Origin: Blastocystis sp. Blastoise
Lineage: Eukaryota > Sar > Bigyra > Opalinata > Blastocystidae
DNA: 64,000 nucleotides
Assembly: GCA_039096225.1 (NCBI GenBank)
Contig: JBBPEB010000002.1
Span: forward strand, 1,103,501-1,167,500
Reading direction: 5' to 3'
Part shown: in pieces, positions 24,193 through 42,827 of the stretch
How the letters are laid out: the number at the start of each line of letters is the position of its first letter
How positions within the stretch are numbered: position 1 is the first letter of the stretch
Translations under genes and position numbers: made by a program
Notes under the pieces: model-generated
Databases searched by the model: none
What the model saw: the letters and a program-made list of their open reading frames with translations, nothing else
Told to the model about the DNA's origin: nothing

Positions 24193-25325
24193 CATAATAA
24201 TAATAAACATAATAATAATAAGTAAATCTATACGTATAATCAATAGGTTCTTCAGAATCAGGAGATGTTGTAACAGTTGAACTATTTATCACGCCACTAT
24301 AATATATATATTAAATAATAATAAACATAATAAACATAATAATAAGCATAATAATAATAATAAACATAATAAACATAATAATAATAATAAACATAATAAT
24401 AATAATAAACATAATAAACACAATAATAAACATAATAACTTCAATTTACGTTGGTAGTTTTTGTCTTGATAATTCCATGGAATCTCCGTATAAAACAAAT
24501 CCTCCCGTGGTTCTGATAGTAAATAATAATTCATAATGAGTAGTAGGTTGTGAAAATAATGTACTATATCGATAATACCGAGTAATACCTACTAAAGGAT
24601 CAAATAAATCACGATGGCCATTCATCCAATCAGAATCAACATAATTCACATTTGTCCAATCAGAGGATACTTGTATAATATCATTATATTTATAAAGAAC
24701 ACTTGAACTAATCGACACAGATACTAAATAAATCAAAATATTATTTTTATTACATTATATATATACATATAGATATTATAGAATCATAAATCATTGTATA
24801 AATAAAATAATAAATCATATAAGTAATATAATCATTATATACATATAACATAAGTCTGATCAACACAATATAACCAGAAAGGATCTGTACTAAATGGCAT
24901 AGTTGTCTTTGTAACTAAGAAATCATCAGCATAAACATATAACCATGATTCACTATTGTAACTACCCCATCCATTACAAGATCTAAAAAAAATATTATAT
25001 TTATAAAAGATCTAAAAAGATATACAAGTCATATAACTCAATCTTATATTGAGATGGAGGAAGACATAATGTCCATTCTTTAACTTGATGAGAATCAGAC
25101 TCACTTGCTTCAACAGCTATAATAAGATCTAAACTATCTCCATTAACTTGGAAAACACTGAAACGCTCTTGATCAGCATAGTCTCCATAAACTTTTTTAA
25201 ACTTAATATTTCCATTTGGTGCTAAGCATGACCCAAAAGCTAAAAATAAAAATTATATTTAAATATTTAAACTCTATACCTATAGTAATCAAAGAAATGA
25301 ATATTAATATATTCATTGCATACAT
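19524..25325 (-). CDS. Very large secreted single-pass membrane protein with Ig-like and discoidin-like repeats
   Basis: The first exon encodes a signal peptide (MYAMNILIFISLITI), joined by a short intron to FGSCLAPNG. About eight small exons lie between 25260 and 23340. The last exon alone (about 23243-19524) gives over 1200 residues. Repeated modules are visible: He_PIG-like motifs (PHGLSLDPNTGIISGIP; PAGLSMDINGIISGNP); segments DSGNNGWSQSSYLTIS and DLDDDGWNGGSYAVTL; W...F.D..W....PLP blocks ending VRFSAGIVLYINGEE or IRTCVGFVMYINGQE; and discoidin-like stretches (PSDWILYGSSN, PSGWRIEGSNDGVTW, PTSWTLSASQDGVSW). Near the end is one transmembrane helix, WIIAVIGIIIVLSLLIIVSC, then a basic cytoplasmic tail of about 50 residues. 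It is likely a surface adhesion or sugar-binding protein; the ligand is unknown. A hAT element begins 43 bp upstream of the start codon. Confidence 0.85.
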
Positions 25326-25359
25326 TCAAAAATAAAATTATAAATTAGACAATTGATTT

Positions 25360-25367
25360 CTTAAAAA
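25360..25367. repeat. Target-site duplication, left copy
   Basis: CTTAAAAA directly precedes the CAGGG terminus. The identical 8-mer directly follows the inverted terminus at 41590. Eight-bp duplications are diagnostic of hAT insertions. Confidence 0.85.
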
Positions 25368-25425
25368 CAGGGGTCACCACGTAGTTACTCGTTAAGCGAA
25401 AGGACCAAAATTTTTGCGCTTAAAT
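25368..25425 (+). repeat. hAT left terminal region
   Basis: It starts CAGGGGTCACCACG and includes TTAAGCGAAA and the 15-mer TTTTTGCGCTTAAAT at 25411-25425, which is repeated inverted at the other end. Such subterminal repeats are where hAT transposases bind. Confidence 0.75.
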
Positions 25426-25570
25426 AACAAAGTTACTTTTTTATTACCGTGATTTTCATAGTTATTTTAAGTGATGAAAACACGGGAAAAACAAAAATAT
25501 AAGGGAAAATGTTTTGCTAAACCAAAAAGAACATTCTATATTAGATAAACTTTTTTTATTGTTTAAATAC

Positions 25571-28304
25571 ATGGAACAGTACTTTAAAAAATTACAAGTA
25601 TATTAATAGTAATATATATATATATATATAGATTGACAAGTCTACAACAGACGAAAAAAAAAAGATGATGACATAATTACAGAAGAAACGAATAATAAAC
25701 CAGATATTAATCCTAAATCCAAATATTATAGTGAAGTAAAAGAAGGAGTTAAAAGATATAATGCCAATCCAGTTGTTTATGGATTTAAAAAATTAACAAA
25801 AAACTCCTATTTTTGTTTAATCTGTGAGTCTACTCTCACGTGTAAAGGTTATGAAGCCTCAAAACTCTTCACTCATTTCAAGAATAAACATGGGTTAAGC
25901 AAATACACATATGATGACATTCAAGAACTCTTAAAAGATCATAATGAAAACACAGAATACTCAAATTCTCTCTTTAGCTTTTCAGATTTATCCAGTAAGC
26001 TTTCATATTTCATCGCCTACTCCATTTCAAAGAATGGATACAGCTACAGAACTGGAGAAAAATTAGTTAAACCTATTATTGAAGAATATGAAAGGTTAAA
26101 GAATGTCAAAGTCCTTTCTAATCTTCCGTTATCCTCAAGCAGTATCAAAAGAAAAAGTGATGAAATTGCTTTGACAATTCAACAAGAAGTAATAAATAGG
26201 ATAAGACAATCAGGATCATTTTCTATTCAGCTTGACGAGTCAACTGACATAGAAATGAAATCCTATTTACTCGTTTATGCTAGATACGAATATAATAAAA
26301 AGTTTACTGAATCATTTTTAAGTATTTTTCAGATTAGTTCCAAAACAGGTGATAATATATTTAACATGGTAGATAATTTCTTTAATAATAATAACCTTCT
26401 GTGGAATAATTGCGTATCAGCTACTTTTGACGGTGCTTCGAATATGAATGGAGACAAAAACTCCTTCAAAACACGAGTACTAGAGAAGAATAAGAATTGT
26501 ATGTTCATCCACTGTTTTCTTCATAGAGAAGAACTCTGTGTAAACTGTTTACCAAAATACTTCACTAATATATTCAAAAGTGCTGTTGAGATAATTTCAT
26601 ATATAAAGAAGTCTGCTGTTAGACAAGACGAATCCAATAATTACAATATTGATAATGAATATTCATTAACCTCTTCTATCTTCTCTCCTCAAGATAACAT
26701 ACCTGATTCCCCTAATAATATATCTTCTTTAGAGATAGAATATAATAAAGTAGTTGAATCCCTTTTAGATACATCTGATACAGATAATAATATAGATAAT
26801 AATATTCATGAAGTTTATAGTAATGATAAGAAGGAAGAAAAAAAGGAAAAAAATATTAGAAGTTATAAACTTCTCCTTTATTGCCCTACAAGATGGCTTT
26901 CATGCCATTCATCAATTAAAAGATTTAATTTACTTAGAAATGGAATAACACTAGTAATAAAAAAGGATAAAGAAAAGAAGGACTTATATAACACCATTAT
27001 TGATACTAACTTCATAGCTTCAATGTTATACCTTGAGGATGTTACCAGTTTATTCTATGATTGTAATAAATCAATGCAAGGACAGCATAGATATATATTT
27101 GGGTTAATAGACATTATGAAGGATTTATTTATAAAATTATCGTTGAGATTAGAAAGACTAATAAATAATAACGATTATTCATCATTTACGAAACTTAAGG
27201 ATTATGTATCTACAACCAAGCTTGATATTAATTCAATCATATTTTATATCAAAAATCATCTAATAACTCTTCGACGTAATTTACTGAATTATTTCCCAGA
27301 AATACTAAATTATATTGGTAGTGATGAATCGTATCTTCAAGACCTTAATGAATATTTAATAGACCAAGAAAATACACATAATACATCAAATATATCTCAT
27401 GAAGTGAATAGTAATGTTAATAACAATACATCAGTAGTATCAAACCAATTTAATATTCTTGGATCATTACAAGGTTGCGTATCTCCAAATGGAGTTGTAA
27501 ATGGCTTAATAACCTATGTTGACATAGTTACTCAGCAATTAATAGAAACTCAAGTAACGATTAGAATTGACTTTCCATATTTAGTATATGGATACACTTT
27601 AGGTAGTATTTCTGGTGTTCTTAATAATTTCCCTAATAGTAGTATTCAAGGACAATACAATGGAATCATTAGTAATATAAATATAATTCAGGCTAATATC
27701 AATTGTATAATAACTCTTGGGGCAATCATTCCAAATGAAATAAGTAATAATACAAATCAAGGAGAAGTACAAAAGAATAAAAAGCAGAAGAAAACGAATA
27801 GTAACATAAAAAAACCAAAAAATACACCAACAACTAATCTTATTGATCATTCTTTATATTGGATTACTAATCCATTTTCAAAAGTAGCTGACGAAAATAA
27901 AATGGAGTTTCATGTTAAAGAAGAGTATTTCTGTTTACTTGCTGATAAAACATGTAGAGAAGAATTTAATAACGTACCAATAGATGAGTTCTATATAAGC
28001 CATAAGAGTCGTTTTCCATTATTATATGATATAGCCAAGAAATGTTTTCTTCCCTTTGCAACTTCATATCTCTGTGAGAGCGGTTTCAGTCATCTCGTGT
28101 ATATAAAAAACAAATACAGAAACACTATTAATCCAACAACCCAAATGACAATTGGATTAACTTCTGATATCATTGATTCTTCATCACTTATAACTACTGT
28201 TTTAGAGCGTATGTATATTATAAGTATTATATTCATAATTCACATAATATAGAATCTATTCTTAATTATATATAGATAAATTAAAGAAAAAGAAACTCGA
28301 TTGA
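25571..28304 (+). CDS. hAT transposase with BED zinc finger
   Basis: A short first exon (MEQYFKKLQ) is followed by a TA intron of about 34 nt. The BED finger follows (FCLICE...THFKNKHG). The RNase-H-like core has FSIQLDESTD (first Asp), SATFDGASNMNGDK (second Asp) and MFIHCFLHREELC (the conserved C-H motif). The C-terminal hATC dimerisation block is YLCESGFSHLVYIKNKYRNT. These motifs match the ZBED5/FAM200-like hAT clade. A last small exon ends HKLKKKKLD after an intron at about 28208. Two oddities stand out. A run of ten A at 25653-25662 puts the first exon one base out of frame with the rest. About 110 Asn/Gly/Ile-rich residues with no family counterpart that I recognise lie between the core and hATC (about 27420-27760). 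Apart from the A run, the reading frame is open throughout. Confidence 0.93.
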
Positions 28305-31300
28305 TAACATCTAGCAACAAAATCACTAATCTAATCCAACTACTTAATTACTGTATTTATACTACAAAGTACATTGATTTCTTTTACTATTAATATTTAT
28401 ATATTTATATTGTTTTCATTATATTAACTATTTGTATTCCATAATGTTTTATTGTTACATTATAATTTGTATTGTTTTAATTAACTCAAGAAGATATACT
28501 GTTATCTTTTAAATATAATTATAAATAGATGACATTGAATATTCCTTTATATATTTGATTATATCAATAGTATATAGTTTCTTAATTAGAATCACTATTC
28601 CTTAATAATTTTTATCTATATTTCAATTATTTTTCTAATTATATTCTTTTTCAAGTACTATTATATTCAGATCAAACGAATAACTGAGAAATATTATTAC
28701 TTATATGAAAAATAAATATTATTTTAGAAGTAATTATTTCATATATACTAATCTCTCTAGTATAATACTTTAAAACAATATCCAATACTAATAAGAATCT
28801 TTATTCAATCAAAAGTATAATATACAACTATAAAGTATACTCTTCTTAAATCAAATAGTATATCTAATCAAGAAGATTAAATATATAAATAAATAGCAAA
28901 ATATATTTTCAATCATAATGTATCAATAGAAAGAACCAAATAACTACTAAAATCATTTACCTGACTTATCAATCAAATATCACAAAGAGAGTGATAACAA
29001 TTGGTTCCTAAAGAATATACTATTTTCCAAAACATATATATAAAGTGGAATCTTAAATCGTTTACACCAACAATTTTATATTTATACATGAATTCAAAAG
29101 GAAAGAGCAAGATGTGTTATATCTATATTAAGTATCATATGAGGGATTATATATATCCGAAAGAGTATTAGAATATATGATATAATAGAAAGTAATGTGG
29201 ATTTTATATTATAATAGCATGAAATAAGTATTAGATTAAGATTCATGATATTATATAAAGGTTAGCATTTGAAAGATTATCAGAAGAAAAATTATTGGAA
29301 AGATTGACATAGACTTAATGAGAATATATTTATATATGTAGATCATAAAGAAGATAACTAAAAACTTGTAAATAAAATTTGAAGTTAAGAAGAAGGAAGA
29401 ATGCATATATCAACTGAATTTATAATCGGCAGTGATAAATGAGTAGAAGAGACGATAATAATTATTTTTAGTATATTTTTAAAGACAATAACATGAAGAG
29501 AGAACAATATTCGTATAAAAATATATATAAATCTATAAATAGAAATACAATAAATAAACCATAAGAAGTAATAAGAAGTTGATTTCTATATTATATCATC
29601 ATGAGTAAAAGAACAAACGGAGTAAATTGTATATAATAGTTAGACATTGTATAAATAATATGAAGTAACGGCTGATAACGGAAAAAGCAGGTGTAAATAT
29701 ATATAAGCATATTAATTATGTACATATGCACTTAAGAAGATATAATATCTAAAGTAATAGAAATGAAAATAAATTTAGAAAATAAACAATTCGAGAACTA
29801 CCTCAACCGTATTCAACAAAATAGAAGAAATACAAATAGTATTATAGTATTCATATCAGCATGAATGTAAGATGTATATAGATAATAAGTTAAAGGGAGT
29901 TGAAATGGTTTAAAGTAAATAGAGATAGTATTTTATTAAATAACAGTACGAAAGAAATATGGAGACATAGATCCTATTATATAATTATATCATTTTTGGA
30001 AAATGAGAGTAATTAGAAATGAGAAAGAATAGAAGGAATAGAAGGTGTAGATACTAGGCTTTTATAAAAAATTAAATAAGAAGAAGAGAATGTACACAAT
30101 AATAATAAATAAGAGTAGCCATATAAATATGTTTAAGTAACAAAAAGAGCAAAACCTTAGAATGAAGAGAAATAATAAAAATATCTTTTGTGGTATATAG
30201 ATAATAGTAATACAACAATGAGAACAAATCCTAACTTTGATTACTAAAATCCATGATGAGTAGTGCCAAGAGAGAAATTGTTGGAAAGAAAAAGAAAGGA
30301 AACGAACGAGAAGAATTATAAAAAACGATAGTAAGAAATAGGACTAATAAAAATATTCAAACCCATATTATTTAGACAAGAAATGGAAAATGCTTCTGAA
30401 ATAATAACTGTGTAAATAGGAAATACAATAAACATGAGCATTAAAGAATATGAAGAGAGATAATGATGAAGCAGTATTAAAATGAATAAGTCTAATAATG
30501 AGCACACAATATACACAATAGAAGCACTAGAAATAAAAGAAAAGTGGATAAAGAAATAGAGATAATGAGGAAGTATAGGATTAAAAATAGGCACAAAAAT
30601 AAGTAGACCATGGGATAATATATAGAACATGAGAAAACGAAGAAAACCATAAATGAAGGATATGAATATGTATATGAAGAGTATATTTGAATGAAATATG
30701 AAAATAAATTAATTGAGTATGTTTTCAATTATAGAAACAAATATAAAAATAAATCTGTTAGAATAATAAAACTAAGATATATAATAATATATAATAGTGA
30801 GGAATTTGTAATTATTAAAGGAAAAGAAAATCGTCATTAAATCTCATAGTATGTTTAATAGAGAAATATGAAACGACTATTAGAATAACATAAGAACATA
30901 AAGAATTCTATCATAGGAGAAAAAGGAATATCAACTAAGGATAATATAAAAGTAATATAAAAATAGCACATCTAGAAACTCTTTAATAAAGGGAAAAGAA
31001 CATGCAGGTGAAGTATTACGAATGATCACATAATAATTGAAAAGCACCAGAAGAAATGAAGAGTCTAATAAATATAAAGATACCATACGAAGAAGATAGG
31101 AAGAGACTGAAAAACCAGAAAACTAATACAATTAATGTAATGCTATAATACCTTAAAAGAACAAAAGATGAAATAAGATAAGGAAATAAGATAAGGTTTA
31201 TAACTAAAAATTCAATATATAATAGTAGACTAACGATAACATGAAGAGAAGTTGAAGAATAATTAACCAAGATGAAAATATATACAAAGAATAAAAAGAA

Positions 31301-32589
31301 ATTCAAAAATTTTATACAGAAAACTACAACAAAGAAATATCATATAGATACTTTCCTGTATAATAGCATATTAAAGAATTACACAATAAGATACTAAAAC
31401 ATTCAAAAACTTATAATAGTAAACTTGATAGAATAAGAGTACATGATAATATTGTAATATAGACAAAAGGATTTAAGGATGAAAAGAAATAAACATCAAT
31501 TGTTACTAATCTGCTACTATCTTCAGTAGAAACTTATGTATGTTAGTAACCATAGTAAGTATTAATCGCAGAGATGAAGTGTTTAAGTATTTATTAAATA
31601 CTAGAATAAGAATAAGAAAATTCATAATAAGTAAATCTATAAGAAAATGTCATCGTTATATATAAATACCATTATAATACAGTATGAAAAAAGGAAGTAT
31701 CAGAAAAATAAAAAACAAAAACAAAATAATTAGCACTTATAAAGTAGAACAAGCAATCAAAAGCACATTAGTCGAATAAAATCAAACATACAAACAACAT
31801 AAATAAAGATCTCATTAATCGCAAAGTTACAAAAAGAAAATGAGTATACTAATTCAAGAAGAGAAGTAAGGAAGTTTGGTGAGTAACCAAATCAGATGTA
31901 AATAATAAATGGAAGGCAACAAACTGTAAATATTCATAAAATTATACATTGCAAGTAATCATTCCAAGAATAAGTAACTGATAAGTATCCATCACGTAGC
32001 ACATTGTAAGATATGTGTATTGAACACTGATCATAACGAGCAAGTACGTAACAAAGCAATCAACAAACAATGGGAAATCATCATGTAGTAGATATTGACT
32101 AGTATTTAAGAGGAGTTCACAATGCAACAAAAACCAATATGAATCTTAATGATAAACCATTATTAGTTCAGAAAGCAGATAGAAAGCAAGTTTGAAAAAA
32201 TATTATAGGCAATAATCTTATTCTGATTTGAATCTTTAACAAAAGAATGAAATTATCATTGAAATTTTTAAAGAATGACTGAAGTTTTAAAAATAATCAA
32301 ATAGTCAGTCCTTTCCTGACTTTGGTGACACTTGCCACCAAATTTTGTGACACTTTTTCAGCCATGCTTAATTCTGCTGAATTTATCAAACACATAAGGA
32401 AGTTTTTTGTAACAAAATATGATACTCATGAGTTTTGTCATCAGACTGAATGAAAGGCTTTTCACCTTATTTGTATACATGGCCATAAATCATAATATTT
32501 TTGACAAAGTTAACCTAAATATCAAAAAAATGTCTTTATAAATGAGCAAATAAAGCTATCATTTATTTGATATAAGCCATCAAACATAT
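28305..32589. other. Gene-free interior of the hAT element
   Basis: This 4.3-kb stretch lacks the TA and ATT microsatellites seen everywhere in host genes. From about 29000 to 32200 its plus strand is rich in A and G and poor in C. Long minus-strand frames rich in Leu/Ile/Tyr/Ser occur there (for example 30316-30630 and 31016-31306). They carry no recognisable domain and I treat them as composition effects. The missing C-terminal half of UTP20 is not found here. Confidence 0.6.
32306..32451. mobile_element. Degenerate non-autonomous hAT (MITE) copy, left part
   Basis: It starts CAGTCCTTTCCTGACTTTGG and continues GTGACACTTGCCACC, then CACTTTTTCAGCCATGCTTAA. This follows the left half of the intact small element at 59504 block by block. 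The right end is eroded: a possible match, TTTTGTC...AGACTGAAT, ends near 32451, and no target duplication remains. Confidence 0.5.
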
Positions 32590-32998
32590 TCAAACTAAAC
32601 GAAGCAATGAAATAATTACTTTAAGCATTAATATACAAAAGACAGAAGAAAAGAAACTATTCAACTTTTTAATCACATTTAGGTACTTCTTGATACCTAT
32701 ATTCAACCCAGTTTCATTTAATATGTATATATATATATGAAAGAATAATAAAATAACAATAAAAAATATATACATATATATATATATATATCAGCATACT
32801 AACGCTAATACCAGATCTAAAATTATGTATAAGTTTCAGTCTGCTTTGAATATGAGAGAGAATAGAATCAAGAAGAGATGAAATATAAGCTATAACCTTA
32901 CTAGTCAACATACGATTTAATAATTCTTCTATATATATAATAGTAATAAATATGGCAATAATAACCAAAATAAATAAAATAATGATTATAATAATAAA

Positions 32999-33108
<110 letters not shown>

Positions 33109-34871
33109 TCGTTGATCCTTTCTATTCTTTTTTTCTTTAATATTTTCTTTTAATTTTTCGATTTCATCTTCATCATCACTATCAGTTTCTTTCATTTCTT
33201 TTCTCATCTTATTCTTCATTTCAGTTTCTTCTCTATTTTCATTCTTTGTTGATTTCTCAAAATTATCCATTTCTTCTTCTAATACCTAATATATTATTAA
33301 TAGTAGCAATAATATCATTAACAATATTAGCACCTAATTGTTTACCAGAATCAATACCTAATGATAAACATTCCACTAAAGTAGGTAATAATAAAGGTTG
33401 AATATCATATAAATAATATAAAGAAGGAGAAAATGATATTAAATGAGGTAATTTAATAATACTGGTGTTTTCTTTAATCCTAATATAGTATTATGTAATA
33501 CTTCATACAAAGGAGTTAATGGATCAAATAATAATGATTTCCATTGTTTATAATTATAACTACTAAAATAACCTATACATTCAACTATTCTCTTTATACA
33601 TAAACCACGTATACGACGTTGAATAAACTTACATCGAATTCTATTCGAATCTGCTTTAGAAGTAGTAGAAGAAGTAGTAGCAATAGTAGTGGCATCTGTA
33701 GATAATTCATTTTCAATTTTCATATTATTATTATTATTATCATTATCATTATTATCATTATTATTATCATCTTCATCTTCAATATCTTCAATATCTTCAA
33801 TATCATCATCATTTCCATTTGTATCTATTTGTTCATCTTCTTTTAATAAATCTTCTAAATTCTCTTTATTATCATAACTATCTTTTAATTTACATCCTAT
33901 AGCAGCTAATATATAATGAATAAAAGAACTACTACGATCTCTCATATATCGTATTAAATCATAACAACTATTCAAAAATCCTAATTTACGAGTATCAGGA
34001 ACTTTCTTTACAGATATATGAGTTAATAATATAGCTACATCTTCTTCTGATTGAACAGAAGGTATAAATAAATCTTTTGTAAATGAACATAATATCATAA
34101 ATAATAATGGCTTTAATTCTTCATAATCTAATATAGATAAATAATTTAAAATAGCAGCAAGTTTCCATAATAATGTGTTTTCGATTTCATCTTCTTATCT
34201 AATAGTCTACCATATAAAATACGTTCTATAATAGGTATAATAAGATCTCTATGCTCTACTTTGATAACTCCTTGATCTTTCTCTATATATAATCCTAACA
34301 TAGTATCACGATAATTCAATTCATCACATAATCCTAATAAACTTTCCTTATATAGAACAGTAGGTAAATTACTATAGCAACATAATACTTCAACACATAA
34401 TTTCTGTAAAGAAGAATCATTCTTATTTAATAATAATATACATATATTCTTTAAAGAATCAGCTAAATAAATACTTTGAATACCAGGCCAATTACTGAAT
34501 ATTTTTAAGAAGACTTTCAGACGAGCATCAGCATCACGTGGACGTAACGTATAATTATACATATATTCTAATTCATTATTTACTTGATTTTCTTCTTTTC
34601 CTTCTTCTTCTTCTTTATGAATAATAGTAGGAGTAGTAATATTCTTTTGTTTTAGAAGTTCTTCGAATTCAGTATGAATTGGTTTCATCACATCACGAGC
34701 TTCAACATCATAGATTATTCGATAACCATAATATTTCTTCTTTAAGAAATCTATAAAGAATCCCATAAATTGTTTATTATATGGACGAATATAAGTAGCT
34801 ACATCAGTAAGAGAAGAGAATAAAGACGTCCAATAAGTATTAACATCTGTATAACTATATAATATATATAT

Positions 34872-34982
<111 letters not shown>

Positions 34983-35406
34983 CCCATAAAGTAGTTCTTC
35001 TCCCATCGATAATCGTTGTTTCAATACAAATGTAAGTGTAGAATATTTAATATAATGTTTATATCTATCTTGTAATCGTTCTAAACCATAGACGATACCA
35101 TATCTCTTTTCTTCTTTAGATAATATACTATATCCTATATGATCATATATATTTATATCTATATAACCATTAATAAGATATGCTTTTTCATAAAAACAAT
35201 TCCAATATAATTTATTATCAAAACTCGCAATTCTTACACAACATTCTGTTAGCTTCTGCCAAAAACGATTCCATTTTAAATAATAAAGACCAAATATATG
35301 ATATACTAAACACATAGGATAACATTCAGGTAAGGATTTCGTTAATAGCATCTGAACTGCTTTCTCTATAGCATTTCTTATACGTTCTTCTGTTAAAGAT
35401 ACCTAT

Positions 35407-35707
<301 letters not shown>

Positions 35708-36408
35708 ATATACAATAAGTTGTGCCGTTTCATCATCTGGACTCTTCTTTAGTTTCTCCATAAATTCATATTCGGCCTTAATAGTCATGGTATATGTACA
35801 ATCATGGTCATCCGTTTTATATTGGAAATGATGATGTATGGGTCGAATGACGCTCTGTATGTCGATACGAAGAATGTTCGAAGAGAGTAACGTTTTGTGC
35901 TATAGAGAAATATAATTATATATGTATTAATATTATGTTTTTAATGATATATAGAGAGTAATAGAAAAAAACAAAAACAATAATAATACTATTATTATTA
36001 TATATATATACATAATTAGAGTCTTTACTCGCTAATCCAACTCTATCTAAGAATACTTGTAAAGTCTTTGTATATAGGGCGGGGATGAAGGGAGAGCGAG
36101 TAACGAAGTGGAACAACAGGAGAATCTGTAAAGGGGAGGAAAATTATATATATATATATATATAAAACTAAAAGAATAAGAGAGAATGACATCATAATTC
36201 AAACTAATTTATATATATATATACCTTAAACAGTGTCTTCTACAAGATATAAAGAAGGATAAATAGAGGGATCATCGAAGAATGTTGTAAGACAAAGAGA
36301 ATGTCCCGCGGGGAATTAAGAGATAGGAAAGTAGTCATCACTATGGAGAGCAGTTCATTAAGGGATTCCGCGGGAAGAAGAAGGAGGGAAGATGATGGAA
36401 TATCTACA

Positions 36409-36454
<46 letters not shown>

Positions 36455-38255
36455 TAATATATATAGAGTAATAAATGTAGAATATGTATAGTAATAAATA
36501 TAGTAATAATAGATAATATTATATATATATACTTGATATCTAAGGAATTCAGGACTATCATATAAATCATGTATATTATCTTTATTCAATTGTTCTTGTA
36601 ATAGATATACATTCTTATATTTGGTTCCCGCGTCGATAGTTGCCGCCAAGGAAGTCACGAGAGGTTCATTGTTATTAATCATAATGAATGAGAAGAGAGA
36701 GAAAGAGGAAGTGAAGTATTGACGGATGTCCAGTGTAAGAAGGAGAAATGACTAGAAAAGAGGGGAATATATAGCTAGAATAAATATAGGAATATATAGC
36801 TAGAATATATATAATAATAAGCATAATAATATGTGGAATAACAATAATAAGTAATTATAATAGAGTATAAAAAGAGAAAAATAAGAGAATGTCACAGTAT
36901 GCGCCACATACGACGATCTACTTTGATATTTTGCTTTAGAATTCGAAGAACAGTTTTGTCAGATATAGGACGTGCTTTGAACGATAAATAATTAATAATG
37001 GCACTATATATAAAAGTATATATAGGTATATATAGTGAGAAAAAATAGATATATATGGTTATATAAAATACTATACATATATATATATACTTCATAGTAG
37101 CTTCTCCATTGATTCTATCTACAAATAGATTACGACTATGAATATTCTCAACCCCACGGGAAATCATCAAATCAAAGGGTAATTGTAAATACCTATATAG
37201 TTATATATATAGTTATATATATATTAGTTATATATATACAGATCAATAAGAGTAGGTATATATGTAGAATTGAGACCCAATCGGAGTAGAGAATAAAGAG
37301 CAATACCATCACTCACCTATATATATAGTTATATATAGTTATAAATATAGTTATATATAGTTATATATAGTTATATACTATTCTTATAATATCGTTAAAG
37401 AATTGAGTGTAATCTTTGTTATTCTTATACCTATAATATAATAGTATATAATAATAAATAATAATAAGATATAATAATATATAATAGTATATAACATATA
37501 ATATACTTATCAAGATTGTCTAGAAGAAGTCGGCCTTGACTTTCTTTGCTCATCAGATCCCCGCGGGGATCTGTGTATAATTGATGCATAGTATCAATAA
37601 GTGTATAGATAGGGGGTAATTGTATATATGTATATAAAGACAGGGAAAAGAAGCATATAAGTCTTCAGATAGAGTCCTAATATATATATATTGATAAATA
37701 GATTAAAAAAAGAATATATATATATATATATATACCATCTGACTTTAGATTGTTCAATTAAACTTAATATCATGTCCATTGTTAGTATCTGATTATATAT
37801 ATAAGAATTCGTCTTTATTCCATTTTGATATAGTTTATTTAATGTATTTTTAGTTACATAAGAACTACATATATATATATATTATGTATATCGGACATAT
37901 TCTGTAGAGTTGATTGAGCATATATATTGTTGAAAAGTGGCTTAATATTGATGAATTGAATCAAAGCAAGACTTCCCGCCAATTTCACAGTCAATAAACC
38001 AGTATTTCTATATACATATATATATATATATAGATCATATATAATAAGAAGATTAGCAGAAAATACACAGAATATATATTATTCATGTATTATATATACT
38101 ATTATATATACTTATATATACTATTATATACATATATATTGTCCATAGATAGCTACTGTTTTATACTCATTTAGAGGGATACGAGGTAATAAATAAGAAA
38201 AAAAATTAGATACATGACCATATTCCCGTGAATACATAACAATTAATAAATCAGC

Positions 38256-38299
<44 letters not shown>

Positions 38300-39888
38300 T
38301 TGATATACAATTAATAGTATAGGAATTATAACGTGCTTTAATGTTCTTTGAGGGATGGAGGAGTGCGTCAGTGAGGGACTTATAAGAAGTAACTATAAGA
38401 ATGTATATATATATAATGATGATTATGAAGATATATATATACAGGTAGATCTTTCAATAGGTTGAAGACGACTATATATATATATATATTTATTATTATT
38501 ATTAATATTATTATTATATAAAATAATATATATACATCAAGTTGTTGGAAGCTCTTTAGAATACGAAGTGCATGGAGACGATGTGTATGTAAAGGGGAGG
38601 CGAGAAGTGGTGCGAGGGTAGGGATAAGGGCCTGAAGGCGAGAGGATGAAAGGTAAGGACTCTCAGAAGATAATGATGTATATATATCTATACATATATA
38701 TATAAATAGTATTAATATATAGATAATATAAATAAAGTATAATAATCAAATATATATATATATACATGCAAAAGTAGCTAAAATCATAGAATTATTTTAA
38801 TTTATAGGAATCAATTCAGATAATATTGAAAATAACTATATAATAATAATAATAATAATATATATATATACTTATTCTTGTTGTTGTAAGGAATCCGTAA
38901 TAGTATCTCTTTCAAAAATATTTATATATATATAATGAATAATTTTTGACCAATAAACTTCATTCTCCATATATAAACCTATATATATATATAATAATAA
39001 GTATATATAATATAATAAATATAATAATAATATATATATACAATCTCGTTTATCATTTAATTGGCTTAATAATTGAATAGCTTCCTTATCTATTGTTCAC
39101 TAATTGTTGATATATATATATATAAAATAATAAATGATAACAACTGGAAATAATTCTATAGTTGAACTATATATATATTATTTTCATAATCATAAATATC
39201 ATAAATACTATAATAAATATACTAATAAATATAATAATAAATATATACTCATCAATATTTTTATACATTAAAGGACCATAAAATAATTCTAAACATAGAA
39301 AGAATGCCACACTTAATTAAAGTATTGACCTCGTATATCTATATATATAATTTGTTATCAAAAATGAAATAATATTCCTTTTAAATATAAATAAGAAAAT
39401 AACGATCACTATAATAAACTAATATACAAATAAATCAATGAAATAATAATGATAAAAAGCAATTATAATATAATTAATATAAATACTAAATAAACCTTAT
39501 AGATAACGCACAATAAATACTCTTGAAAAATACTGATCATCCTGCACTATAAAATAAAGATAAATCAAATAAATATTACAAATGAAGAAACGAATTATAT
39601 ACAAAAAATATTTGTTGATCCATTTGAACCATCTGGAATGCTATAGATCCTGATTTCACAGTATAAAGAGTTGTTTAAAAGCTAAAAGCCTTGATACCTA
39701 AAGAAAGAAAGTAATTAAGTAAAGCAGATTATAAAAATTAAAATAAATACTCAAGGCGAATACTCTTGATAAACTAAGTTAATTAAATTAAACCAAAATA
39801 AATGATCGTATCAAGAGATAATCAAAATAAATATATAAAAGAACAAGTTTCATAAAAAGATGTTTTTCCAAGAAATAAAAATAAAAAT

Positions 39889-39960
39889 GCCTCTTGCGAG
39901 ATTCGATCCAGCGACAATTACCATAATAGCTACAGCGCTGGTCAACTATACCAACCGATT
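39889..39960 (-). other. tRNA-like sequence with no acceptor stem
   Basis: On the minus strand there is a D-arm/A-box-like GGTTGGTATAGTTGACCAGC, a stem CAGCG...CGCTG around a GTA-containing loop, and a B-box-like GGATCGAATC. The 3' end reads AAGAGGC, but the 5' end does not pair with it. It could be a decayed tRNA or the tRNA-derived head of a SINE-like repeat. Confidence 0.35.
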
Positions 39961-40252
39961 TCTCAATTTTATTTTTTCATGTGTTCTATATAATAAGTTT
40001 AAAATTATTTGATATCTTCAAATATTATATTTATGCTCTTTTATTACATTTATAACATTCTAGAAATACTTAGAATTGTTTTTAAACAATAATTACTATT
40101 TTTTGAAAAAAAAGTTTGTTGATATGTTGATTCTAAACTAAAAAGCAGATATCAATGATGTAAATAATGTTTACAGATAATAAAAATGAAACAAAGTTGA
40201 TTTTAAATAAAATCATTGTAAATAGCAGTCAAAAGAAAAAGTTTAAAAAAAT

Positions 40253-40323
40253 AGTTCCTCGTAAGATTCGATCCGTCCACTATGTAAAAATTTTATACGC
40301 ACTGACCATTTGACCAAACAACT
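40253..40323 (-). other. Second tRNA-like sequence, partial acceptor stem
   Basis: Read on the minus strand it spans 71 nt, with AGTTGTT at the 5' end pairing imperfectly with AGGAACT at the 3' end. It has the D-arm-like TTTGGTCAAATGG and the same GGATCGAATCT B-box as the sequence at 39889. The anticodon arm cannot be folded convincingly. It is probably not a functional tRNA. Confidence 0.35.
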
Positions 40324-41523
40324 CCCTTATAATATTTTTCATCAAGTCATATAATAATTGCAAAGCTAGTGACTACTAACCGTTTTTTTATTTTTTTATT
40401 TTTAAACATAAAAACAATATATTTTATAATATAAATATTATAAATGTGTTGTGTGACTTATTCTACATATAAAATACATTTTAAAACCATTTTATAAGGC
40501 TATTAAAAATCATTTTGTTGGACGTATTGTTTTTTCAAATCCAGCTTTTGTTCATTGTATTGTTTTTTGTTTGATTTTTGAAAAATAATATTTTAATATG
40601 CTTTTCGTTTATTTAATTTTTATTACTTGTCAGGATGTATCTGTACAGTCCCTACAAGACTACTTCATGATATTTTATAAAAATAAAAACTTTTTAATTA
40701 CATTATTATTTTTTATAATATTTTTTAGTATTTATTGACATTATTTTTCATTATAAACATAAATAAAAGTCTTTAAAATAATATACAAAAGAATATCTTA
40801 AGCAATTGACTTTTGTCACAAAATAATTTTTATTTGTCACCCAAATTAACACAAATAGTCAAATATAGGAATCATACTTGTTGTTATTTGATGACTTATG
40901 AACTTTTAAGTCATGTATCTGTCACAACATGTGTCACAAAAATCTTCTTAGATGACTTATTTCAAAACATTTATACATTATATATCAAAATAATATGTTT
41001 TAAGTTAAAAACTGTCATGTCATAGTATAATAGTCAATGAATGAATTACTTTTTTATGTCACCCGGTCTTTTTTTCATGAAAAGTGTGTAAATTAATGCG
41101 TCTTGATGAGCTGAGTTTGAAAATTTTTTGACCACTAATAATCAGTATTTAGCCAATTTAAAAGAATTCAAAGTTTTGTAAAAATTTGAAGCATGTATTG
41201 CTATTATGATTCTACTACTACTATATTATTAAGATCTACACATAATCACGCTTTTTTCCTAATTGTTAAATACTTAAAGACAATCAATCATTATAACTAC
41301 ATGATTAACATTCTAAAAATGCTAAAAAATTCAATTTGCTCTCTAATTATAATATGTGTAAGGTTATTATTTATTCAACAACAAATCAAATTACATCAAC
41401 AAACACAAACCTCGTGTAAAATGTCAAAAACATCATTATTGAGCTTATCTCGATCCTCTAAAAATTATTAAACGTTTTATTCTATGTAGATTTATAAAAA
41501 TTAAAAGAAAAATGAAATAAAAG

Positions 41524-41589
41524 ATTTAAGCGCAAAAACAACATCGAAAAGCGCACTTTGCGCTTAAAGCGCAGTTTTGGCACACCCTG
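41524..41589 (-). repeat. hAT right terminal region
   Basis: Read inward it begins CAGGGTGTGCCAAAACTG, contains three GCGCTT-type motifs between 41551 and 41573, and ends with the inverted 15-mer shared with the left terminus (41524-41538). Confidence 0.75.
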
Positions 41590-41597
41590 CTTAAAAA
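41590..41597. repeat. Target-site duplication, right copy
   Basis: CTTAAAAA, identical to 25360-25367, immediately outside the CCCTG end of the element. Confidence 0.85.
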
Positions 41598-42275
41598 TGT
41601 GTCTTATTCTTTTGATTTCAAATCAAATCAACTGTTCTCCAAAATCAAGAGAATAACCACGGTTTTCTCCAAAATTAACATTTAGAATCACACCAACAAT
41701 AGTCAGCCAATAAATTTTCTAGGAACAGAAACGCTTAAAAATAAAAAGTGATTTTAAGAATATAAAATACATATTAATACATAATTTTCTAAATATATTA
41801 AATATTTCATGTTCAATGCTTATCATACATATGTTTGCTTTGTAAAAAGCTTGATCATACAATTCAATGTGCAGTGATGAAATTGTTTTATAAGTTCAAC
41901 AATCTCTTTTAAAATTCCATAGTCTGAATAACTAATATTTAACATTCTAATAATTCGATTAAAACAAAAAAAGAAAATTCATTAAGAAAGAGAAAACTCT
42001 TTTGATATAACTTTTGCTTTTAAAATAATGACAAATATATTAAAGGTGTATAGGAAATTAATAAGCATTCATATGAAGTAGTTTAAAGCATATTTGTTTT
42101 CAAGAACTAATCGTATAAAATATATTTTTGATCAAATACACATTTATCTAAACATTTTCAACGTTGTATGCTTAGGAAATTAATTTTATTTATATAGTAT
42201 AAGAATTGTATCAGAAATTCATTATCATACATACAACCTTATTCTCAGATAGGTAAATAAGAGATTAGCTAACAT
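41598..42275. other. Intergenic, no gene seen
   Basis: A+T-rich unique sequence between the hAT right end and tRNA-Gly, with no conserved frame. Confidence 0.55.
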
Positions 42276-42346
42276 GCACCAGTGGTCCAGTGGTAAGATA
42301 GTTCCCTGCCACGGAACAGACCCGGGTTCGATTCCCGGCTGGTGCA
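42276..42346 (+). tRNA. tRNA-Gly (anticodon GCC)
   Basis: This 71-nt sequence folds as a complete cloverleaf. The acceptor is GCACCAG with CTGGTGC, plus discriminator A. The A-box is TGGTCCAGTGGTAAGA. The anticodon arm GTTCC-CTGCCAC-GGAAC carries GCC. The T-arm is CCCGG-GTTCGAT-TCCCGG with a B-box. CCA is not encoded and there is no intron. A T5 run just downstream (42349-42353) can act as the Pol III terminator. Confidence 0.98.
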
Positions 42347-42827
42347 AATTTTTATTTTAAATATATTATTTTAAAACAAAAGTCTATTAAAATATATTAT
42401 TATAACTGTTTTTTAGCAAGTAGATTATAATGAATAATTCACAAAATTTAAAACAACTTTTAGATATGAAAAAATAATAATTATCATACTTCTGAAGCAG
42501 ACAGATAATTCAAAATTTGCTTTGAGTGGCTCTGAAAAAGCATGCTAGTGATGATGCTTATTAAATAAAATGAAAAAACAATATTATAAGAATCAAGTCA
42601 ATCTCATTTTTAAGATAAGTTTTCATCAGTGTATCCATTAAGATAAATAACTAAATTATGGCTTTCCTATAATTAGATATATATTTATAATGTTCACGAA
42701 ATAAGTAAAAAAGTAAAAAAAATTCTTTCTAAAGAATTCCCAAGAAAATGAAAATAAAAAGAAGTTTTTCTAGACTTTAAAGAAGAATCATACATTTGCT
42801 TTATTCAGAAGAGAATAATTTATAACG
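42347..42827. other. Intergenic and promoter region of the proteasome gene
   Basis: No gene is seen. A and T homopolymer runs lie just upstream of the proteasome subunit start. Confidence 0.5.

Follow-up and report, generated by a model that had tools for sequence, protein, structure and literature searches.

A multicopy 16.2-kb composite hAT transposon of Blastocystis, probably grown by nesting, carries a broken piece of UTP20

Hermes, Ac, hobo and Tol2 are transposons of the hAT superfamily, and Starships are giant elements of fungi that use a tyrosine recombinase. In the available text of the papers cited here, Starships are sized at 143 kb and larger (PMC9594970), and ToxhAT is described as a 14-kb composite, cargo-bearing hAT of fungal wheat pathogens that is itself nested in a larger element (PMC6737239, PMC9594970). 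Pack-TIRs, as portrayed in the same portions of text, are terminal inverted repeat (TIR) transposons that multiply captured host gene sequence and have differing target site duplications (TSDs) (PMC8903248, PMC8277862); plant Pack-TYPE elements are defined there as non-autonomous (PMC8903248), and in animals four multicopy Pack-TIRs are reported, the example given being a 291-bp capture on three chromosomes (PMC8277862). Here we describe element E, a composite hAT transposon found in a 64,000-nucleotide stretch (the window; C15:1103501-1167500) of the 33.3-Mb, 34-contig assembly of the stramenopile Blastocystis sp. Blastoise. A preliminary description, made from the letters of the window, had proposed a giant hAT with gene cargo; the idea holds, with ToxhAT, as far as its available accounts go, as an already known precedent. 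A search of the literature on Blastocystis and hAT or other transposable elements found no account of a Blastocystis hAT or of E.

E starts with CAGGGGTCACC at 25368 and finishes with GGCACACCCTG at 41589, and the 8-mers on its two outer sides are identical (CTTAAAAA), so the CAGGG inverted termini and duplicated flanks lie exactly where the preliminary description had placed them (Table 1). The inverted repeat of the two ends is imperfect past the first five bases. The inverted 15-mer TTTTTGCGCTTAAAT, also noticed earlier, is present near both ends; GCGCTTAA occurs twice and its inverse TTAAGCGC once in the entire window, every occurrence within E. A single 8-bp flank match has a probability by chance of p ~1e-4 at the base composition here, and the window locus by itself is moderate evidence for transposition; it is the copies across the genome that settle the matter.

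A genome search for further copies of both ends, proposed in the preliminary description, was productive. A 641-base left-end query gave 27 matches, at least 19 of them near full length at 99-100% identity, and a 698-base right-end query gave at least 18 near-full-length matches at 100% identity; copy counts are lower bounds, since the right-end search scored the best 40 of 49 candidates. All 18 right ends pair with a left end, giving at least 18 two-ended copies, each starting with CAGGGG and finishing with CACACCCTG as hAT-type short terminal inverted repeats. Sixteen of the 18 measure 16,099-16,222 bp, and the other two (18,385 bp and 22,709 bp) are longer because of further insertions. The nineteenth left end, at C22:56001, belongs to a copy that stops after window position 29901; this truncated copy ends in a CCTGG-rich tandem repeat (C22:66800-67600). 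Perfect 8-bp TSDs flank 16 of the 18 two-ended copies and represent 16 different 8-mers, with T at position 2 in 11/16 and A at position 7 in 12/16. T at position 2 and A at position 7 of the target are a known preference of hAT transposons.

To find sites without the element, the two flanks of each of the 16 copies with a clean TSD were joined, keeping one target copy, and run against the genome, with the best 40 candidates scored. The joined flanks of C13:748006-764224 recur uninterrupted, over 221 bp and at 100% identity, at no fewer than 8 other places; E entered a repeat there, and the sister repeats display the pre-insertion site. Matched ends, TSDs and the empty site together indicate that E is mobile as a single unit, in line with the one giant hAT element first proposed. 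The copies differ very little: 8 left loci show two variable columns across the first 2134 bases, 18 right loci show six across the last 2193 bases, and a 4001-base internal query finds 14 copies at full score and two more nearly full, these 16 being complete matches at 100%. This near-identity points to a very recent burst of E.

The BED-hAT transposase reported just inside the left end is borne out. Across 98% of its length the main open frame has 100% identity with the 876-aa protein WA158_007455, an open NCBI gene model from the Blastoise genome; comparison of this model with the DNA allowed a small first exon (25571-25578) and a last exon (28276-28304) to be placed by eye. PF05699 (hAT dimerisation) scores just over the Pfam cut-off in the main frame and DUF4371 falls under it; the BED-type finger was read directly from the sequence, the Pfam zinc-finger match being sub-threshold. 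A protein search with the E transposase returned 19 proteins among 7999 candidates scored, with query coverage of 14-28% for all except WA158_007455; no named fungal protein is found among the 19 (eight are nameless and one is without an organism). In an alignment of 18 of these proteins (one omitted), which share 16-24% identity with WA158_007455, the acidic residues D205 and D270, the cysteine C298 and the R424-W425 pair of the RW motif do not vary, and H301 is almost invariant. The profile of these relatives matches the Hermes transposase at 1.2e-13, most strongly in the C-terminal part, and a single-sequence structure-chain search gave no hAT structure and one unrelated chain at an E value of 0.43. 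By such testable sequence features E is assigned to the hAT superfamily, with activity predicted, and cut-and-paste movement of the whole of E by its own transposase is best supported. An Rfam scan of 25000-42000 at gathering scores gave no match, and an NCBIfam scan gave nothing useful.

E encloses a second transposable element, Y. The stretch 39402-41129 is 91-95% identical to three Y copies elsewhere, and the rightmost 1.15-1.26 kb of Y in E matches nine more places at 84-87% (12 of 15 such places read). Across the 12 read loci, the right terminus of Y lies about 115 bases beyond the Y breakpoint in E; the Y within E thus has neither its right end nor the right-hand copy of its target duplication. 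Full-length relatives at C13:1008312-1016654 and C10:128343-137044 are flanked on both sides by TTGAAAAA and CTAAAAAT, respectively, so that both Y copies read at both ends have 8-bp TSDs. Frames of the C10 element match DUF4371 over the cut-off and the hAT dimerisation domain under it, and BLASTP found no similarity between the E transposase frame and the largest frame of the C10 element. Taken together, the TSDs, the transposase frames and this lack of similarity identify Y as a second hAT-type family. The C13 copy of Y (C13:1008312-1014850) has open reading frames unlike UTP20, with a DEX1 beta-sandwich as best Pfam match (E value 0.076, below cut-off), so Y elements elsewhere may have genes other than UTP20 as cargo.

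The cargo is the 5' part of UTP20, a ribosome-assembly gene, recognized through UTP20_N (PF07539) at 1.5e-23. The 7-kb segment of host-type gene sequence in the preliminary description is accordingly present, at about 6.5 kb; it was brought by the nested Y, and it is truncated and frameshifted. Three DNA blocks of the cargo match a locus on contig C34 at 88-96% identity. Because the C-terminal UTP20 domain was located only at that locus (C34:672.5-673.5k), adjoining the longest continuous UTP20 frame (646 codons), we take C34:672.5-680.4k as the presumed host UTP20 and donor copy. The UTP20_N exon is found at 100% protein identity at 17 places, corresponding to 17/18 E copies, and at 97-98% on C28, C34 and C15; the remainder of its 48 matches are weaker relics. 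The exon appears to have been lost from the E copy at C31:218.7k, in which two markers stand 1000 rather than 2920 bases apart. UTP20 sequence at C15 and C28 continues into the right part of Y, so Y carried UTP20 too.

Several further observations concern UTP20 elsewhere in the genome. The C34 gene is without about 2.8 kb of 5' sequence (cf. window 35800-38400) that is kept by the copies in E and on C15, C28 and C21/C22/C33, so that the presumed host gene has suffered a deletion or the assembly is faulty there. The UTP20 5' sequence stands in a third context at C21:1082500-1088200, C22:49000-54400 and C33:81900-87400, where the stretches read contain no match to the right part of Y; C21 and C22 agree with each other at 99.9% identity across 5.3 kb, which points to another recently duplicated UTP20 carrier. 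UTP20-like relics with about 68-70% protein identity and stop codons occur on C13, C14, C17, C25, C26 and C31, and most lie close to contig ends (C25 is excepted from this judgement).

Two copies of E have been enlarged by a common insert. Helitrons start with TC, end with CTRR preceded by a 3' hairpin, insert between A and T, and leave no TSD. The copy at C16:1139961-1162669 and the truncated copy at C22:56001 contain the same 6.49-kb insert at the same base (the C22 insert was read at its ends only), and this insert bears the Helitron marks: 5'-TC, 3'-CTAG, a hairpin near the 3' end (read from sequence) and a position between A and T with no duplication. It is a mere rider on E. The 22.7-kb C16 copy is flanked by a perfect duplication, CTGAATAA. 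Because these two E copies occupy different sites and yet have the insert at one and the same base, E bearing the insert probably itself moved, in a 22.7-kb form; gene conversion is an alternative for the shared insert. The copy at C31:218.7k has a different insert of 4.13 kb at window position 28621 (C31:229690-233880).

Table 1. Features of element E and its immediate flanks, in window coordinates.
Feature	Position	Strand	Remarks
Element E, composite hAT	25368-41589	+	16,222 bp; 18 near-identical two-ended copies, TSDs, paralogous empty sites
Left TSD of E, CTTAAAAA	25360-25367		equals 41590-41597
Right TSD of E, CTTAAAAA	41590-41597		equals 25360-25367
Subterminal 15-mer TTTTTGCGCTTAAAT	25411-25425	+	inverse copy 41524-41538
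hAT transposase gene	25571-28304	+	main open frame 25637-28252; BED-type finger, RW motif, hAT dimerisation region
A+T-rich part of E	28305-32305	+	no convincing gene; partly common to 71-76% relative C15:593.9-598.0k
Insertion point of 6.49-kb Helitron-like insert	29769/29770		in two other copies; absent from the window copy
Presumed left half of Y target duplication, CAAATAGT	32298-32305		right half presumably lost
Nested hAT-type element Y	32306-41129	+	left terminus CAGTCCTTTCC; right terminus (~115 bp) missing
UTP20 gene, 5' part	32745-39249	-	~6.5 kb; truncated, frameshifted vs host copy
Right-hand part of Y	39250-41129	+	DNA matches to other Y copies
E's own right end	41130-41589	+	18 identical-ended copies

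Outside E, a tRNA-Gly (gcc) lies at window position 42275-42347, about 0.7 kb to the right of the element.

We consider it very likely that E is a recently active composite hAT that has grown by nesting. From the observed unit, with its boundaries, TSDs, copy number, near-identity, nested Y and broken UTP20 piece, we infer the following order of events. An ancestor of E of about 7.4 kb (25368-32305 plus 41130-41589), encoding its own BED-hAT transposase, would have received Y, which already held the captured 5' part of UTP20. The right end of Y would subsequently have been lost, leaving only the outer ends of E usable. The E transposase would recognize these outer ends, excise the whole 16.2-kb unit and reinsert it with 8-bp duplications, and repair or replication would have raised the number of units to at least 18. 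The 6.5-kb Helitron-like insert would then have entered one of them, giving E copies with the insert at two places. The route by which Y entered, whether insertion and deletion or joint use of neighboring ends, is less certain.

A number of results weigh against this reading. Two of the 18 E copies are without a clean TSD: at C16:443.7-459.9k the flanking 8-mers are unmatched, and at C31:218.7-237.1k the target copy is displaced by 3 additional bases, AGA. The empty site sought in the preliminary description was recovered for the one C13 copy, at its 8 paralogous places, and for none of the other 15 joins; these 15/16 joined flanks matched their own halves only, among the 40 candidates scored and with a left flank of only 48-55 bases for 9 of the 15. 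A Y-free sister of E was not found in the assembly, and the 71-76% relative at C15:593.9-598.0k has no CAGGG or CCCTG within the 9.9 kb read. The A run early in the main exon of the transposase gene has 10 bases in 2 copies, 11 in 11, 12 in 4 and 13 in 1 (18/19 left ends readable), so that many copies, including that of the window, may be without a working transposase, or the A run may contain an assembly error. Lastly, three 3' exons of UTP20 give low dN/dS values, 0.09-0.18 in six pairs among E, the host gene and two Y-borne copies, which could reflect selection on part of the cargo.

Among the alternatives to insertion of Y followed by deletion, a composite formed through end bypass or tandem insertion, in which two E-family ends flanking Y came to be used together, is possible and on balance doubtful. 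The missing right terminus of Y and the missing second half of its target are what would be expected if the right end of E came from another element, and tandem insertion followed by re-mobilization is, in the available text of that source, a published Pack-TYPE model (PMC8903248). Against this, the exact right-end 21-mer has no second occurrence within E, and insertion followed by deletion accounts equally for the missing Y end.

A functional UTP20 cargo, such as a shortened protein kept by selection, is unlikely. It would fit the low dN/dS of the three 3' exons; however, single-base indels relative to the 646-codon host frame are found in the E copy and in both Y-borne copies (C15 and C28), the C-terminal half of UTP20 is absent, a shortened 241-codon frame is identical in all 17 matched E copies, and four small 5' exons have dN/dS values of 0.48-1.46 (three pairs). 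The low dN could also be a legacy of the source gene or a result of gene conversion. After the comparison of dN/dS and frames a functional cargo was judged improbable, and the UTP20 piece is most likely a passenger bearing the mark of its source gene.

Spread of the 16-kb block by ectopic or segmental duplication, or its appearance through an assembly artefact, would agree with the near-identity of the copies and with the C16:443.7k copy, whose lack of a TSD is what inter-copy recombination could yield. Yet the boundaries are exact to the base, the flanks differ, 16/18 copies have their own 8-bp duplication, and an assembler mispairing flanks would not yield matching duplications. This explanation is very improbable, and segmental duplication was rejected as largely refuted by the TSDs and exact boundaries.

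The ends of E also occur in shorter elements. The terminal 21 bases of E have 29 exact occurrences in the genome (18 E copies and 11 others), against 0 for a reversed-pattern control. Seven of the 11 other places were read: all are elements of 332-333 bp with the same outer ends and their own left ends, 6/7 have perfect 8-bp duplications, and the last ~97 bp of E is 84-86% identical to these non-autonomous relatives. E thus shares its ends with a wider hAT family that includes non-autonomous elements, as is normal for a hAT family. The preliminary description had named a nearer right end, or independent partners for the two ends, as findings that would speak against a single element; the right end does have other partners in these short relatives and has none in the transposase-bearing copies, where a nearer right end was sought and not found, all 18 two-ended copies using the far one. 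That E is two separate elements, a smaller left hAT whose own right end is nearer and, 16 kb off by coincidence, the right end of something unrelated such as a short non-autonomous element, is hardly credible, since the same pair of ends stands at 18 places (16 spaced 16.1-16.2 kb and 16 with matching TSDs), the 8 paralogous empty sites are without the whole block and no right-end 21-mer is repeated inside E, and independent ends for the E family were rejected on the paired TSDs and paralogous empty sites.

Among described systems, ToxhAT is the closest precedent to E for size, composite build and cargo, as far as the available text of its papers goes. According to that text its cargo includes a working gene moved between species, whereas that of E is a broken host gene piece; its inverted repeats are 74 bp, in contrast to the short ends of E; its nested element has a helix-turn-helix transposase, unlike the hAT-type element nested in E; and that text gives no copy numbers or 8-bp TSDs for ToxhAT. 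E has 18 near-identical copies in one genome, clean 8-bp TSDs in 16 of them and a 22.7-kb derivative. With hAT transposons E shares 8-bp TSDs, CAGGG-type ends, subterminal motifs, a BED-type finger, the RW motif and a C-terminal dimerisation region. As a natural unit E measures 16.2-22.7 kb, compared with 4.7 kb for Tol2 in the available part of its source (PMC8151067), and E also contains a second hAT-type element. Tol2 vectors are said in that text to deliver ~200 kb, with full efficiency to 10-11 kb (PMC8151067), so the size of E is by itself no necessary bar to transposition.

Like Pack-TIRs and Pack-hATs, E holds host gene sequence between its ends and has a donor copy elsewhere (C34); unlike the non-autonomous Pack-TIRs, it has its own hAT transposase gene, and its captured piece is 6.5 kb, was acquired via a nested element and retains the UTP20_N exon in 17 copies. 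Like Starships, E is mobile, large and loaded with gene cargo and nested transposons; it differs from them in having a hAT transposase gene at its end and a broken gene piece as cargo. The preliminary description compared E in concept with cargo-bearing giant elements of fungi; a resemblance to giant elements whose cargo works is unsupported. We rate as new in E the multiplicity of its copies, the nesting of a hAT-type element in a hAT, and a size series in one genome.

Gene capture by hATs is known mostly from small non-autonomous elements of plants and animals and from the 14-kb fungal ToxhAT. Here a transposase-bearing hAT spreads a 6.5-kb gene piece to many sites, and the intermediate, the donor gene, the empty sites and a larger derivative lie together in one 33-Mb stramenopile genome. 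A chain of hATs that hands on a captured host gene, from UTP20 to Y to E, followed by a Helitron-like insert into E, is a tentative reading that falls somewhat short of probable. If it is true, the outermost, transposase-bearing E keeps moving at 16 and then at 22.7 kb, and hATs would be accreting carriers with the stages of their growth preserved within one genome. How cargo grows step by step, and how large a hAT can naturally be and still transpose, thereby become directly testable.

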